Shown piece by piece: positions 27,625 through 34,888 of a stretch of DNA of 35,093 nt; the stretch's first letter is position 1; the number at the start of each line of letters is the position of its first letter. The notes below the pieces were generated by a model, which did no database searches, was not told the origin of the DNA, and saw only the letters and a list, made by a program, of their open reading frames with translations. The translations under genes and the position numbers were made by a program. Origin of the DNA: Methanobacteriota archaeon (GTDB taxonomy: Archaea; Thermoplasmatota; Poseidoniia; Poseidoniales; Thalassarchaeaceae); assembly GCA_014240285.1 (NCBI GenBank), contig JAAZXI010000012.1, forward strand, positions 1 through 35,093, read 5' to 3'.

Positions 27625-27673
27625 GCCCCCTTCGGCCGTCAGATTGATGCCTGTTCATTCTCGGCCACAGCCG

Positions 27674-27928
27674 ATGGCAGACCGTCAGGTGTCCGAGATT
27701 CGCGGGCTTCCCGTCATCATGCCTAGCGGAAGGCTGCTCGGAACAGTCCACGACACGGTCATCGACACAGACGGTTGGACCTGCACGCACATCTTCGTGG
27801 CCGACCCTCCCGCTGATTTGGTCGAGGGCAGAATCCACGTCGCGATTCCCTGGAACTGGGTCAGATCGATAGGCGATGTCGTGCTCCTGCGATGGTTCCC
27901 TTCAACCCCAATTCCTCGTAACCCGTGA
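27674..27928 (+). CDS. PRC-barrel domain protein
   Basis: The 84-residue product is a single PRC-barrel-like beta domain: EIRGLPVIMPSGRLLGTVHDTVIDTDG has the family form in which a conserved Gly precedes a strand describing how a parameter is set, with VAIPWNWVRSIGDVVLL in the second half. Such small proteins in archaea are linked to RNA metabolism and, in some lineages, cell division (CdpB), but no specific role can be given here. ATG 27674 is chosen as closest to the fold; TTG 27644 and ATG 27647 would add about ten residues and have equally weak binding sites. Confidence 0.75.
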   Translation: MADRQVSEIRGLPVIMPSGRLLGTVHDTVIDTDGWTCTHIFVADPPADLVEGRIHVAIPWNWVRSIGDVVLLRWFPSTPIPRNP

Positions 27929-28031: not shown

Positions 28032-30419
28032 GTGCGCCGAGCGTCCGCCACCCTACTAATCGCCCTGCTGCTGGTCAGTTCAGCACCTCTTACGCAGGCT
28101 GACTCGAAAGGCATCATCTCATGCATAAATGCAGACCTGTCGATGATGCCGGCAAGTTGGGATGCCGATGACCAGTCGTGCGTCAGGCTAGATCTGGGAG
28201 AACTGGAGCCCGGCGATACCCTGTCTTTCGATCTTACCACCAATTTGAATATCGACATACTCATGTTCTCTGTCAACTCAATATCAGTATACCAGAATGA
28301 GCAGGCCTACCGAAGCGACTCGATATGGGAGAGAAACTCCGTCTTTGAGGACTTCAATGGAACCGGTTCCTGGCACTGGACGGTACCTGACGATAGGGAG
28401 ATGACACGATGGTACCTCGTCCTCGACAACCTAGCTCACCCCCAAGACGCAGGTGGCGGCGCTCAGGGTGGCTCAATCGCAACCATCACACTTGACTCGG
28501 GAACAATCACTCCCGGGCCATTCACTCTTGCCGACACAATCGTCAGACTCGACCCCGGAGAGCACGCGGTTATGCACGGTCCGTTCGTGGTGGATGCGGG
28601 CACTCAGGTCAGGATGGAGGCCAACACCATGGAAGGCGCTCCCGACGTTTTCCTGATGACCTCATCGCAGGTGGCTCTGTACGAACAGGGCGGCACCACT
28701 GCAGCACGCGTCGAGGGCACAGACATGCTACTCATAATTCAGGACCGCGACATGGTCTGGATGGCCACAGAGAACTACGAGGGCGAGGACCTCTATCTGG
28801 TGGTTGATAATAGAGCAGGCCCCGCCGGGGGAGGTGCTGGAACTGGGGATATCGCAGTCACGGTGACACTCTCACTGACTCCGATTTTGGAACCGGTGAT
28901 TAGCAGCGATGTTTCACTCGAGATAGTCAACGTAGGCGACATCGTCACTCTAGACGCTACGCAGACACCGAACAACTCTGAGCAGATTCCCGAGTCTGGC
29001 TTCCACTGGGACACTAACGGAGACGGAACCGACGACACTGTAGGGTCGTCGGTGAATGTCAGCTGGTCGGACCCGACCAATGTCACCATCAGACTCACTG
29101 TAGTGGCGATAGATGCGCGCAGCTCCAGTTCGTACCAAATGATCGAAATCTCTGACATCTCCGAGCCTGAAGTGAGCATCGGTGTCTCTGCTATTTTGGA
29201 GCGCACTTACGGAGACGACGTAGTTCTAAGCGGGCAAGTGAGCGATAACTGGGGCATCTCTACGATCGAATGGCTCGTCGATGATGTTCTGATGCGAACC
29301 AACTCTGACAGCGACGAAGGAGCAACAGTGTTCAATCATCTGTTCAACTCCAGTTACACCGCTGGAATCCATACCATCACCCTGCGGGCCACCGACAACT
29401 CAGGCATGGTTTCCGAGGACAGTGCTACCATCAATCTGTACGACTCCACTCCCCCTGTCATCGGCATCTATCAGGAGGAGGTGACCCTGCTGATAGGGCA
29501 GACCTTCCGCTTCGAGGCCAACGTTAGCGATGGCGAGTCGAACAACCTACTGTTTTCTTGGGACTTCGATGACAGCACCGACTCTGATTCCGACGGCGAT
29601 CCGAGGAACGACGATGACGGCTTTGGCGACTCGGTGCTGTGGAGCTACGACGCCTCAGGCCCCGTGACCGTAGTTTGTCAGGTCGAGAACGATGCCGGCC
29701 TAGTTGCCGAGTTCGAGGTACTGGTCAATGTGCTCAGCGGCAATGAGGGTGATGAATCTGATCTGATGCAATTGGGAATCATGGCCGCAGGTGCCCTCAT
29801 AGTGGTGATTCTGATTGCCCTGGTGGCTTGGCGCGTCATGTCCAATCGAAGACTCGCAGCGATGATTGCCGAGGAAAATCAGTCCGAGCAGCCTGCATCC
29901 GCGCCGCCTTCGGCCGAGGAGCAGAAGGCCATGTGGGGTGGAGCAGAGTCCGCCGTGCAGATAGAGCAGCCCGCCCAGCAAGTCTTCGGCGATTTCTCAA
30001 GCGGGATGTCGGGGTCGACCCAAGGAATCTCCACTGCCATGGGAGAACCCGAGGGAGAGGAACTGGATCCTGACATCGCTGCGCTGCTGCAGTCATCAGG
30101 GGAATCAGCCTCTTCCGGTTCCGAAGTTGCGAGCAATCTACTCTCTGAGTTCGAGGATGAAGATGATGCGGTCGAGAGAGAGGACGTCGATTTCTCGCAT
30201 GATTCCCAGACAGATGAGACTGGCTCCAACTGGTCCCCTAGTGAGGACGAGGCCGAGGTCTTCCACCCGGAGGAGTCTGAGCCAGAGCCGAACCGCACCG
30301 TACGTCAGAACTGCTCTTCGTGCGATAAGAAGTTCGAGATTGAAATGCCACCCGGGGTCGACACTGCCAGGACGGCATGCCCTCACTGCGGCTCAATAGA
30401 GTCAGTTAGTTTGGAATGA
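28032..30419 (+). CDS. Membrane-anchored PKD-type surface protein with a cytoplasmic zinc ribbon
   Basis: The 795-residue product has a signal peptide (1-23), about 280 residues of beta-rich extracellular sequence, and three immunoglobulin/PKD-like domains (Asp-rich turns at D327 and D511). One membrane helix (about 582-604) is followed by a 150-residue acidic, Ser/Gln/Glu-rich cytoplasmic linker. The linker ends in a zinc ribbon C761xxC764-x18-C783xxC786 of the MJ0042 type. This topology places a possible nucleic-acid or protein-binding finger inside the cell under an extracellular adhesion-type region. The start is GTG with AGGGGGTG 11 bases upstream; signal peptide Arg residues follow at once. 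No homolog with known function is recognised. Confidence 0.85.
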   Translation: MRRASATLLIALLLVSSAPLTQADSKGIISCINADLSMMPASWDADDQSCVRLDLGELEPGDTLSFDLTTNLNIDILMFSVNSISVYQNEQAYRSDSIWERNSVFEDFNGTGSWHWTVPDDREMTRWYLVLDNLAHPQDAGGGAQGGSIATITLDSGTITPGPFTLADTIVRLDPGEHAVMHGPFVVDAGTQVRMEANTMEGAPDVFLMTSSQVALYEQGGTTAARVEGTDMLLIIQDRDMVWMATENYEGEDLYLVVDNRAGPAGGGAGTGDIAVTVTLSLTPILEPVISSDVSLEIVNVGDIVTLDATQTPNNSEQIPESGFHWDTNGDGTDDTVGSSVNVSWSDPTNVTIRLTVVAIDARSSSSYQMIEISDISEPEVSIGVSAILERTYGDDVVLSGQVSDNWGISTIEWLVDDVLMRTNSDSDEGATVFNHLFNSSYTAGIHTITLRATDNSGMVSEDSATINLYDSTPPVIGIYQEEVTLLIGQTFRFEANVSDGESNNLLFSWDFDDSTDSDSDGDPRNDDDGFGDSVLWSYDASGPVTVVCQVENDAGLVAEFEVLVNVLSGNEGDESDLMQLGIMAAGALIVVILIALVAWRVMSNRRLAAMIAEENQSEQPASAPPSAEEQKAMWGGAESAVQIEQPAQQVFGDFSSGMSGSTQGISTAMGEPEGEELDPDIAALLQSSGESASSGSEVASNLLSEFEDEDDAVEREDVDFSHDSQTDETGSNWSPSEDEAEVFHPEESEPEPNRTVRQNCSSCDKKFEIEMPPGVDTARTACPHCGSIESVSLE

Positions 30420-30502: not shown

Positions 30503-33500
30503 ATGGACAGCACCGGTGTCCGACTGGTTTACAGGGCACCAAGGGCGAACAATTCGCATACCCTGCTGATAGCTCTACTGTTCCTTCTCCCCATCCTCTC
30601 TCCCTTCTCTGCGGTGAGCGCCGAGGCGAGAATCGAATCTCAGGACTTCGAGATACTAGGCCAACTGTCCGAAGTCCTCGAGGAGCGCCAAGAGATGTTG
30701 GACAGCAATTCTGTCGCTCAATTGGCCCAACCAACCATCGATGGAATCAGCAACTCGGTAACGCCAACCGGACCCTCCGACCCTCTCGCCAATGTGGATG
30801 AGACCATAGTTGGGGCGAGCATGGTGGTGACCACCCCTCCGCAACCCCAGCATCCGGGCCCCTACAATCTACTGATTGACCCCAGCAGCAGCCCCCCCGG
30901 ACAGGTCGACAACATCTGGCAGACTCTGGTGAACCTGACCGATTACGTAATTTGGACAGAGTACACTGATCTCGAGGGTAACACGATTCAGAGCTACGAG
31001 GTTGTAACATTCTCCGCTAACCTGATTTCGCTACTTGACATCAACTCAGACCCACTTCTGCACGAGGTCGACATCGACAACGACGGGGACGATGACATCG
31101 AAGTTGGACTAAAAATCGCCTGGGAGTTCCTAGGTGGCTGGGGGGTCGAGGACGGCGTACTGTGGATCGAGCCCGGCATCTCCTACTCGGTCAAGGTACT
31201 CGACTCCAGCCAGAACGACCCAGATTGGAATCAGCTGGACTCACTACAGGTATCTCTGATCAAAGCCTTCGCATATTCTGGCCAGGACTCCATACTGGCC
31301 CTCGGAGAGGGCGAATCCTACATCTGGGTAGTCGACTCGAGATTCACAACCCAACCGAACGACTTCACTCTCCGAATAGGAATCGAGAGATTCTACTTCG
31401 ACATCTCGGGAGCAGGCTCCGATCTGCTGTTCTCCCTAATTCAGGCACTTACTCTAGGCATTATCAACTCGGGAGTCGACGAATCCGGCATCACCTTCGC
31501 CTCGATCTCAGCGCCCTACGCCATCGAGATTAGGAACCCGGGTCAGTCCGACTGCCCCGATCGCTATTCTCCAGACGAGTTGCTGTACGCCACGCACACA
31601 GAGTTGAACTGCGGGGTAGCCGCCGGCTTCGGATACCTCCATTTCTCCCCTCCAGACGATAACGGTGACAGGGACCTCTGGGAGTTAGCCTACATCGAAC
31701 TTTCATTCCACCCCAACAAGGACGCTGTCATTATCCCAGAGGAGGTCGACATCATCATCAGAACAGACAGCGTGCTGCCGGAGAACGGTCTGGTCGACGG
31801 CGAGGACGGACTGACTACCATCGAGTACTGGGCCGATCAGAGGACCGATTTGCACATCCACTTCCACGAGAATCGCTCCGAGCTCCCACCTTCGGAGTCC
31901 GATGGCGGGAGTAGGGGCAATGTGACCGACTCCGTCGGTTGGCTCCGCGGAATGCCCGCAGGATCGTTGTCACCCGGTGAGATTGAGCGCGTATTCAGGA
32001 TGCTCGGCTCGGACGGTTCGCAGTCGCAGTTGCCCGGACAACTCCCTTCGAGACTGGGGTTGATTATAGGAATCAAGAACTTCAGTCGAGACAACAGTGA
32101 GAATGTCGATGACCCTACGCTGCCAGTTAATCCTGCCAATCCTCCGAAAACCCTGATTCTCCTGCGCTCTGTGCAGTCCGTGGAGGAGATTGACTACGAC
32201 TCTTGGTTCCTGCGCGAGGGTGCTCCTGGAGACCACCGTAGAATCCACATTTCTGCAAGAGACGTCCCCACTGCCATCGTCTTGTATGGCTCATTCGAGT
32301 TAGGTGGAGGGGGTGCGGTCGACAACAGCTTAGATTCTGAGGACAGCTTAGATTTCGTCTCAAAGATAGTCGACAACGTACTAATCAACATAGTCGACCT
32401 GTTCCTAGATATCGGTAACGTGCTGAACGACATCCCTTCCGCGGTTGTCGATGTCATCAGCGGGGGCGTCGATGGGACTAGCGGCTTGGAGGGGCGCACG
32501 TTTCATCTGCTGCTGACAGACAATTGGCTGGTGACCCGGACCGACATGCCGATTCAGTCCATTTCGGTTCAGACAGGCTCCAGCTCGCATCCGGTCATGC
32601 CAGGCGATCACCTCCTTCTAGCAAAAGACAGAGAAATGGAAACTGTGAGCGGACGGAATGGCCCCGTCGATCCCCTGGTTCCGGTAGCGGCCAGCATCCG
32701 CTTCAGCGGGCTGGTGGCATTCTCATTGGTCGACGACGACGAGCTAGACGAGCAACTAATGAGTATGCGAACCTCCTCAAACGAAGCATTCCGCTTCACT
32801 TACATCGAGCACCCTTCTGGAATGCTCGAGGGGGCCTCCTTCGAGGCCCTGACACTCAGTGATATCCCTGACAACCTATCCCTACAAATCTCGCCCAGCG
32901 GAATGGAGTACCTCGCTTCGTCCGGAATCGAGTCGATTGCCTACGCAGGTATGGATGGCACACAGCGCCAAGCGGCTACCATAATTGGCGTGCCCGACTC
33001 GTTCAACACTACTTCAGGAATTGTAACCGGGTGGTCATCCTCCACTCCCATATCATCCATCGAGGCGCAAATCAGCAATTCGACTGAACCGGTCAGGATG
33101 ACGGGAGATCATTTCCTCTTCCATCATGATCAGGAAACTGGGACCTCTACCATATCGGCCAGACTGACCGGACTCAGCGAGGTCAGTTGGATGGAGCCGA
33201 TCGAGGAGGGAGCCTCAGGTCCGGCCGGTAGAGGAACTGCCCAGATTTCGGTTTCTGGCGACCGGGCCCTGAATATCAACGTCGACCACGCTCCCACTTT
33301 AGATGGTGATTCATTATCGGTACTGGCGTCTATCGACCCACTCCCCTCCACTGTGGGAATCCAGATTCCGACTGGGGCAGATTCCGGTTCCAGCCTCGAT
33401 GTACCCGAGCTCAACACGTCGAACGGACTTTCTGGAGTCGCTTTCTTCATCAGCGGATTCGCTGATCTCGGCAGGTCTGTTAACAGCGTCCTGTCTGGGA

Positions 33501-34888
33501 TAACCTCAGACATTTCGACCAGTTCCGAGAGCGATGAGGATTTCTCCTTTGGTTTACAGTTGGAGGCAGATTCGGCATTCGATCTTACTGTGGAGGCAGT
33601 GCACGGTGATGGCTCTGTCAAGGCACCCGTTTGGGTTCATGGATTCGCTTTCCAATCGTCTCCCACAGGGATAGCAGATGGCTTCCATCTGAGGATTTGG
33701 TTGCCTGAGCTACCTCCTCTGATTGACCTCTCGGTCACTAGGTCGAACAAAGTCAACGGCCAGGACTGGAGCATCAGTCTAGGGCTCGACGGCTGGGTAC
33801 CGGCTCACAGTGAGTTCATGTTCCAGATATACGGGATAAACGGTCAGGACTTGTTACTGACTCTACAGGGTTTGACCGTAGGAGCGCCGACAAATCTCGG
33901 TCTCGACGCGATTTTCGAAATTAGAACAATTGGCGAAATCACAGAGGTCACCACCTCGACTCATTATGTCCTCTCCGAGAGGCTGGACTGGGTGCACATC
34001 CTACTCATTAACAGAGAGGCTGGAAGCAGAACAGAGGTGATGATTCATGACATTCCTGAGACAATCGATATACAGGCCAGCTTAGGCACCGCGATATCCA
34101 TCGATATGACAGTCCCTGAGCAATACAGGCGCGACGGCTCGGCCGTCGGTGCCATCATGATGCAGCAAATGCAGTGGCTGGATTCAGCATGGTGGCCAGC
34201 AACGGTATTCCTGACCGATGTGCCTGGTTGGATAAATCTGACAACGGCCCCCACTCTAGATTTCGATATTACGCAGAACATAGCTTTCCAAGGCACCCCA
34301 ACTCTCGACTTCAGGGCCTCTGAGGAGGGCATGTCACTGTACATAGAGGCCTTTGGTAAGGCGATAAACAGGAGAGGGGACACGATTTTACTGGCCGAGG
34401 GAATGACCGATTTCATGTCTATCAAGACCACACAGACCTTCGGTCTCGCAATCAGATCTGGTGGTGACGGCGTCGAACGCATGTATATCCGAATGAGCAA
34501 CGTTCCAGTCAGTCCGCCAATGGTACTCGAGGAATTGGAGGCCCTTGGTGAGAACTTACAGCGGGCCACAGTAAACATCAGAGAGATTGTTGGCCCATAC
34601 AGCATTATCGAACTTGATGATGTTAAGGGTGAGAGAATCATCGTTTCGGCCCGTGCCTCGGCTGACATTGAGGGCACTGAAATAGACCTCAGGGGTGTTC
34701 TCCTAGATGCTCAGATTACTGATGGAATTCCGACAGGTACCACGCTAGGGGTCAACGGACTGGCTTCCGACCTCTCATTGCTCAACATGTTCCCCGGTCT
34801 TAGTGGCTCGACCAAACACGTGATGGTCATCGAGCCGTTCTCCTCGGCTGTTCTGACTATACTCGCAACGATATTGGGAGGTGATTGA
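30503..34888 (+). CDS. Large secreted protein of unknown family (1461 residues)
   Basis: The product has a signal peptide (hydrophobic core about 20-36, end near VSAE at 41) and is otherwise acidic and beta-strand rich, with few Cys. An Asp-rich DIDNDGDDDIE loop lies near residues 190-200. From about 580 on, a weak recurring pattern [DNG]-[IVM]-P followed by alternating hydrophobics appears (587, 681, 787, 829, 1183, 1239, 1333; LP variants near 947 and 1070), suggesting degenerate beta repeats. The tail SSAVLTILATILGGD is only weakly hydrophobic, so the protein may be released or held by its neighbour. No enzyme motif is visible. GGAGGTG six bases before the ATG is the best ribosome binding site in the region. 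Confidence 0.82.
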   Translation: MDSTGVRLVYRAPRANNSHTLLIALLFLLPILSPFSAVSAEARIESQDFEILGQLSEVLEERQEMLDSNSVAQLAQPTIDGISNSVTPTGPSDPLANVDETIVGASMVVTTPPQPQHPGPYNLLIDPSSSPPGQVDNIWQTLVNLTDYVIWTEYTDLEGNTIQSYEVVTFSANLISLLDINSDPLLHEVDIDNDGDDDIEVGLKIAWEFLGGWGVEDGVLWIEPGISYSVKVLDSSQNDPDWNQLDSLQVSLIKAFAYSGQDSILALGEGESYIWVVDSRFTTQPNDFTLRIGIERFYFDISGAGSDLLFSLIQALTLGIINSGVDESGITFASISAPYAIEIRNPGQSDCPDRYSPDELLYATHTELNCGVAAGFGYLHFSPPDDNGDRDLWELAYIELSFHPNKDAVIIPEEVDIIIRTDSVLPENGLVDGEDGLTTIEYWADQRTDLHIHFHENRSELPPSESDGGSRGNVTDSVGWLRGMPAGSLSPGEIERVFRMLGSDGSQSQLPGQLPSRLGLIIGIKNFSRDNSENVDDPTLPVNPANPPKTLILLRSVQSVEEIDYDSWFLREGAPGDHRRIHISARDVPTAIVLYGSFELGGGGAVDNSLDSEDSLDFVSKIVDNVLINIVDLFLDIGNVLNDIPSAVVDVISGGVDGTSGLEGRTFHLLLTDNWLVTRTDMPIQSISVQTGSSSHPVMPGDHLLLAKDREMETVSGRNGPVDPLVPVAASIRFSGLVAFSLVDDDELDEQLMSMRTSSNEAFRFTYIEHPSGMLEGASFEALTLSDIPDNLSLQISPSGMEYLASSGIESIAYAGMDGTQRQAATIIGVPDSFNTTSGIVTGWSSSTPISSIEAQISNSTEPVRMTGDHFLFHHDQETGTSTISARLTGLSEVSWMEPIEEGASGPAGRGTAQISVSGDRALNINVDHAPTLDGDSLSVLASIDPLPSTVGIQIPTGADSGSSLDVPELNTSNGLSGVAFFISGFADLGRSVNSVLSGITSDISTSSESDEDFSFGLQLEADSAFDLTVEAVHGDGSVKAPVWVHGFAFQSSPTGIADGFHLRIWLPELPPLIDLSVTRSNKVNGQDWSISLGLDGWVPAHSEFMFQIYGINGQDLLLTLQGLTVGAPTNLGLDAIFEIRTIGEITEVTTSTHYVLSERLDWVHILLINREAGSRTEVMIHDIPETIDIQASLGTAISIDMTVPEQYRRDGSAVGAIMMQQMQWLDSAWWPATVFLTDVPGWINLTTAPTLDFDITQNIAFQGTPTLDFRASEEGMSLYIEAFGKAINRRGDTILLAEGMTDFMSIKTTQTFGLAIRSGGDGVERMYIRMSNVPVSPPMVLEELEALGENLQRATVNIREIVGPYSIIELDDVKGERIIVSARASADIEGTEIDLRGVLLDAQITDGIPTGTTLGVNGLASDLSLLNMFPGLSGSTKHVMVIEPFSSAVLTILATILGGD

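Follow-up and report, generated by a model that had tools for sequence, protein, structure and literature searches.

A Widely Conserved Poseidoniales Membrane Protein with a Predicted Cytoplasmic Zinc Ribbon

The window, a stretch of 35,093 nucleotides on contig C9 of a 1.33-Mb genome from a Poseidoniales archaeon of the MGIIb family, encodes a 795-aa protein predicted to run from an extracellular rod through one membrane helix to an acidic linker and a zinc ribbon in the cytoplasm. Orthologs were found in 59 of the 60 Poseidoniales (Marine Group II) genomes searched, spanning 18 genera and two families (f1 and f2), and a profile of the N-terminal region matched 48 of 194 Thermoplasmatota genomes, all of them Poseidoniales, which together point to a lineage-specific core gene. 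We take the anatomy of the protein, but not its function, to be as secure as prediction allows. Our favored reading, to which we give an even chance, is that the tail is a docking device that ties a surface complex to a cytosolic partner.

Domain Architecture and Topology

The features of the protein are as follows (window coordinates, strand, evidence).

28032..30419, +: gene for the predicted type I membrane protein (795 aa, GTG start, TGA stop)
28032..28100, +: putative signal peptide, residues 1–23 (read by eye; helix 4–16 in the model)
28122..28505, +: jelly-roll domain 1, GOLD-like, residues about 31–158, with conserved C31 and C50 (model of residues 22–286; VIA-align)
28509..28889, +: jelly-roll domain 2, GOLD/PPC-like, residues about 160–286 (model of residues 22–286; fold comparison)
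28890..29156, +: Ig-like β-sandwich 1, residues about 287–375 (structure model and fold matches)
29157..29444, +: Ig-like domain 2 (Big_7/PKD-like), residues about 376–471 (Pfam Big_7, domain scanned alone; fold matches)
29451..29741, +: PKD domain, residues about 474–570 (Pfam PKD_4 and PKD above cut-off on the whole protein; model)
29763..29831, +: predicted transmembrane helix, residues 578–600, basic residues on the tail side (hydropathy and charge; model)
29832..30296, +: disordered acidic linker, predicted cytoplasmic, residues 601–755 (low pLDDT; composition; pN/pS 0.34)
29916..29942, +: linker motif 1, EEQKAMWGG, residues 629–637 (72/72 orthologs)
30132..30164, +: linker motif 2, SNLLSEFEDED, residues 701–711 (51/72 orthologs; short helix 699–705 in the model)
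30297..30416, +: C-terminal zinc ribbon, residues 756–795, with C761, C764, C783, and C786 (orthologs, tail alignment, model, pN/pS)

An earlier note on this DNA had described a signal peptide, PKD-like domains, one helix, an acidic linker, and a terminal finger; every one of these elements is present, and the four cysteines lie at exactly the positions that it gave. Its account of the ectodomain as Ig/PKD-like has to be revised, because two jelly rolls, at residues about 31–286, stand before the three Ig/PKD-like domains. The N-terminal segment, VRRASATLLIALLLVSSAPLTQA, reads by eye as signal-peptide-like.

All structures of the protein used here are predictions. Residues 22–286, modeled alone, gave the two jelly rolls. 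With VIA-align, the first matched the GOLD domain of p24 (5azw; Z 9.6, rmsd 2.4, 89 aligned), and the second matched the GOLD domain of SEC14L (4tlg; Z 9.7) and a PPC domain (5sv5; Z 8.9). Since the matches to p24 and SEC14L GOLD domains, PPC domains, and carbohydrate-binding modules were all ties at Z 8–10, we claim a fold class and no particular family. A Pfam scan of the separate domains found no GOLD match, and the GOLD likeness stands at the level of fold. Matches to capsid proteins and to Vip3 toxins were put aside as common jelly rolls, and neither the tail nor the jelly-roll region gave an informative match in sequence searches of the PDB. C31 and C50 are invariant among orthologs, and no match to the jelly-roll region was found outside Poseidoniales. 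Between residues 284 and 570, the model holds three Ig-like sandwiches that resemble many Ig, Fn3, and adhesin chains. In the whole-protein Pfam scan, residues 474–559 matched PKD_4 (27.2 bits; cut-off 27) and PKD (24.2 bits; cut-off 23.5), and the PKD match reached 57.4 bits in the ortholog from genome G037. The domain N-terminal to it matched Big_7 when scanned alone (26.8 bits; cut-off 24.1).

Topology was assigned from hydropathy, the positive-inside rule, and the signal peptide as read by eye. The single hydrophobic stretch at residues 581–599 is followed by WRVMSNRR, and in all orthologs the strongest hydrophobic stretch beyond residue 400 has 2–5 basic residues after it vs. 0–2 before it. 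Hydropathy and charge thus agree throughout on a predicted type I single-pass layout with the ribbon inside, and the cytoplasmic C terminus proposed in the earlier note fits the predicted topology across the whole order. Even with the N-terminal hydrophobic segment retained as an uncleaved anchor, the tail would lie inside. In the AlphaFold model, a helix spans residues 578–608, most of 607–751 is of low confidence, and four strands at 756–793, predicted to make up the ribbon fold, have block pLDDT values of about 74–86. The linker (∼160 aa in the window protein, with 37 D/E vs. 7 K/R) varies from 106 to 238 residues across orthologs and is acidic in most of them.

Conservation of the Gene and Its Tail

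The gene is usually present in a single copy per genome. The exception among the 60 genomes, G010, has a weak PKD match only, and the copies in G023 and G045 are truncated; the listed genomes that have no match to the N-terminal profile start at the sister lineage of the class. A search for paralogs in the window’s own genome gave only weak matches to the PKD domain and marginal matches to the ribbon. The comparisons below used 72 distinct complete orthologs from both families, drawn mostly from incomplete metagenome-assembled genomes.

The pattern CxxC-x18-CxxC occurs at the C terminus of all 72 orthologs (x17 once), with 8–12 residues past the last cysteine. The near constancy of the spacer and of the position relative to the chain end argues that the four-cysteine pattern is not due to chance. 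Loss of the cysteines in close relatives, which the earlier note had named as counting against its interpretation, was not seen. In the tail alignment, four cysteines and two prolines (CxxC and CPxC) are invariant; elsewhere, the ribbon differs between the two families. Two CxxC knuckles on β hairpins, by which the zinc ribbon fold group is defined, are found in the alignment, in 72/72 orthologs, and in the four modeled strands, and we infer that the ribbon binds zinc.

Of the proposal of an MJ0042-type finger, the zinc ribbon stands and the MJ0042 type does not clearly do so: the window protein was not matched, and its tail alone scored 18.0 bits vs. the curated cut-off of 30.3 for Zn_ribbon_4. 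TIGR02098 (MJ0042) matched 15 of 25 tails (best E 7e-5), the window’s tail not among them. The best family for the ribbon is Zn_ribbon_8/FmdB; FmdB-type ribbons (Zn_ribbon_8, TIGR02605) were matched by 25/25 tails, but the scores lie under the curated cut-offs (window tail alone, 29.1 bits vs. 34.4 for Zn_ribbon_8 and 22.5 vs. 31.3 for TIGR02605).

Among eight relatives in the genus, pN/pS was 0.133 for the ribbon, 0.150 for the jelly rolls, 0.215 for the PKD/Ig domains, 0.340 for the linker, and 0.523 for the helix, values of which only the ranking is to be trusted, as synonymous change is near saturation. By that ranking, the ribbon changes no faster than the most slowly evolving part of the ectodomain. 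Within the linker, motif 1 (EEQKAMWGG in f1, AEMxSIYG-type in f2) occurs in 72/72 orthologs (shuffled means, 6.9/50 and 2.8/22) and motif 2 (LLSxFxDD) in 51/72 (shuffled means, 4.7/50 and 0.9/22); the regular expressions were composed after inspection of the alignment, so that these counts, set against shuffled sequences, overstate significance. Most f2 orthologs (L072–L090) have an additional helical-looking juxtamembrane segment, RGLSxxEAxxHM..., which is absent from f1 and in two sequences tested gave no Pfam match.

Genomic Context

Conserved neighbors lie on both sides of the gene within the window.

27644..27928, +: PRC-barrel gene, upstream conserved neighbor (Pfam; compared loci)
30503..34888, +: next cassette gene, a 1461-aa ectodomain protein with a hydrophobic C terminus and almost no cytoplasmic tail (ORF; compared loci)

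The gene order L15e, PRC-barrel, sometimes RNase Z (which we take to be such from our own reading of the sequence), 795-aa protein, and 1461-aa protein is kept in both families. A Pfam scan of the 1461-aa protein found no domain. The 795-aa gene stands first in a surface cassette conserved across the order. The cassette common to both families continues with genes for proteins of about 187 aa, a subtilase, and a protein of about 900 aa; the window stops just past the 1461-aa gene, and these later genes are known from relatives only. Beyond the ∼900-aa gene lie what we read as genes such as occur in respiratory complex I operons. The ∼187-aa protein is a small type II membrane protein with one helix, and the subtilase (identified by Pfam; about 1500 aa) has CARDB domains and one helix.

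In most genomes, the subtilase ends in a cytoplasmic tail of the form CxxC...CxxCGARYH...C...CxxC, with weak matches to Prok-RING_1 below cut-off; this Cys-rich tail is a feature of the neighbor and not of the 795-aa protein. Such membrane-anchored subtilases with the RING-like CGARYH tail are found in both families (L148:8587-13122, L215:5948-10474, and equivalents). In genome G028, the subtilase (L219:4803-9269, − strand) bears instead a Trp-rich aromatic tail, YPGWLWDPSKQEWVPDPD, without cysteines.

PRC-barrel proteins are archaeal division factors. A link to cell division was dropped: ftsZ is a divergent neighbor in f1, but it was not found near the gene in the f2 loci compared. The PRC-barrel gene was also dropped as evidence of a division role, since it sits between L15e and RNase Z.

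Similar Tails on Other Surface Proteins

The earlier note had suggested looking for the same helix–linker–finger tail on other ectodomains in related genomes, and such tails were found on unrelated ectodomains. In eight genomes of the order, weak matches to the tail profile led to membrane proteins that end in a ribbon (L107, L111, L119, L122, and L124); one of these (L107, contig C11) is another surface-type protein of the window’s own genome, and L122 carries the ribbon layout on a CARDB ectodomain. Elsewhere in Thermoplasmatota, the ectodomain–helix–ribbon layout occurs in L254 (a PKD array with three ribbons), L248 (PKD), L242 (M14 peptidase), and L252. The PKD, CARDB, and M14 proteins (L254, L248, L122, and L242) share with the 795-aa protein an ectodomain, one helix, a low-complexity linker, and cytoplasmic ribbons mostly reaching the C terminus; they differ in that they often have two to four ribbons and in that their ectodomains are unrelated or otherwise arranged. 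This recurrence on unrelated ectodomains indicates that the layout is a lineage habit of Thermoplasmatota and not a one-off. The statement that it belongs to no known class was too strong, as ribbon- or RING-like tails recur on many surface proteins of the phylum, peptidases included, a pattern that speaks for docking or anchoring no less than for signaling.

In 1.2 Mb of genome G037, surveyed with mechanical ORF calls and with type-I-like proteins chosen by hydropathy, a C-terminal ribbon was found in 4 of 60 such proteins, most others being without one. Related ribbons cap soluble proteins too, among them Hsp70 (DnaK) homologs in genomes G107 and G092 (L250:1020-3560, + strand, and L253): the first has three C-terminal ribbons and is an Hsp70 by Pfam, and the second, with two, is probably another Hsp70.

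Function of the Tail

In the docking reading, the ectodomain, with its pair of GOLD/PPC-like jelly rolls and its three Ig/PKD-like domains, would form a rod fit to bind glycans or other surface proteins. One helix would cross the membrane, and inside, a disordered acidic tether displaying short motifs would end in the folded zinc ribbon. The motifs and ribbon may bind a cytosolic partner, and through it a surface complex comprising also the 1461-aa ectodomain, the small type II protein, and the subtilase with its RING-like tail would be tied to the cell interior, with the outcome that the complex is placed or clustered. Complex formation, the partner, and the docking purpose are what we infer. 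The order-wide retention of the ribbon, its constraint similar to that of the ectodomain, and the conserved motifs favor a tail that binds something, and its recurrence on peptidases and adhesin-like proteins favors general docking or placing over a dedicated contact receptor. Against docking, the cysteine-free tail of the G028 subtilase means that the finger is dispensable in at least that neighbor. The linker motifs could instead be processing or turnover signals.

A contact or ligand receptor, the role that the earlier note had proposed, would bind particles or polysaccharide, change its clustering or conformation, and relay this through ribbon and motifs to a cytosolic effector. Ectodomain folds typical of binding proteins, a conserved and constrained tail with motifs, and the RING-like tail of the cassette’s subtilase suit such a role. 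However, no transducing domain (kinase, HAMP, methyl-accepting, or other) was found in the protein or the scanned cassette genes, nor was a partner gene identified, and the cassette holds no regulator gene. A single helix with a long flexible tether would transmit conformation poorly, and peptidases bear the same tails. We therefore regard the receptor as one of several readings and an unlikely one.

A zinc ribbon can serve as nothing more than a structural cap at a chain end. The one here might likewise be a compact stop or stabilizer that has no specific partner, keeps the tail folded and protease resistant, and prevents the helix from slipping out of the membrane. That varied ribbons cap many proteins of the phylum, soluble ones and Hsp70 included, would fit a generic role, as would the divergence of the ribbon between families at all but the invariant positions. 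We nevertheless find this explanation rather improbable, because the ribbon is as constrained as the ectodomain within the genus, the conserved linker motifs are left unexplained, and many other surface proteins of G037 have no ribbon.

Least probable, and quite doubtful to us, is an envelope scaffold or S-layer-type anchor, in which the cassette encodes a cell coat, the 795-aa protein is its membrane stalk, and the tail merely positions it: the order-wide core gene, the adjoining gene for a giant conserved ectodomain protein, and the precedent of SlaB, the S-layer membrane anchor of Sulfolobus (PMC6805947), speak for it, but no coat protein of Poseidoniales was identified in this analysis, and the idea overlaps with the docking reading.

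Relation to Known Proteins and Significance

Searches of open-license papers found no description of the protein or its layout. The p24 (emp24/gp25L) proteins have one helix and a cytoplasmic tail with binding motifs, which binds coatomer. The 795-aa protein resembles them in the GOLD-like fold outside, a fold-level match only and tied with other jelly rolls, but it is far larger and has a zinc ribbon in place of a coatomer-binding tail. TcaA has a cytosolic ribbon at its N terminus, one helix, and an extracellular part. It too is a zinc-ribbon membrane protein, but it is bacterial, of reverse polarity, and its ectodomain is unrelated. TcaA is a zinc-ribbon domain-containing protein of Staphylococcus aureus linked to the glycopeptide response (PMC10611510).

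Archaea of Marine Group II rank with the most common in the plankton, and in the literature consulted they have no cultured representative (PMC6461757). Their envelope is little described, and the 795-aa protein, as a core surface protein whose inner tail is conserved, gives a practical bait for whatever links envelope and interior in archaea. Ribbon- and RING-like cytoplasmic tails are a habit shared among Thermoplasmatota surface proteins, which means that tests can also be made beyond this uncultured group. It is conceivable, though we think it unlikely, that C-terminal ribbons, RING-like fingers, and aromatic WW-like ends make up a tail code in Poseidoniales and the wider Thermoplasmatota that sorts surface proteins or couples them to a cytosolic scaffold. 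If true, such a code would provide outside–inside linkage across the membrane in a role comparable to integrin-type coupling.

As a separate observation, several of the ribbonless type-I-like proteins of G037 end in aromatic or acidic tails. The aromatic ones, such as GLPPGWTDEQWQWYG (e.g., contig positions 284263, 836462, and 952972), are possibly another shared tail module, and their EQW..YG resembles motif 1 of the 795-aa protein.
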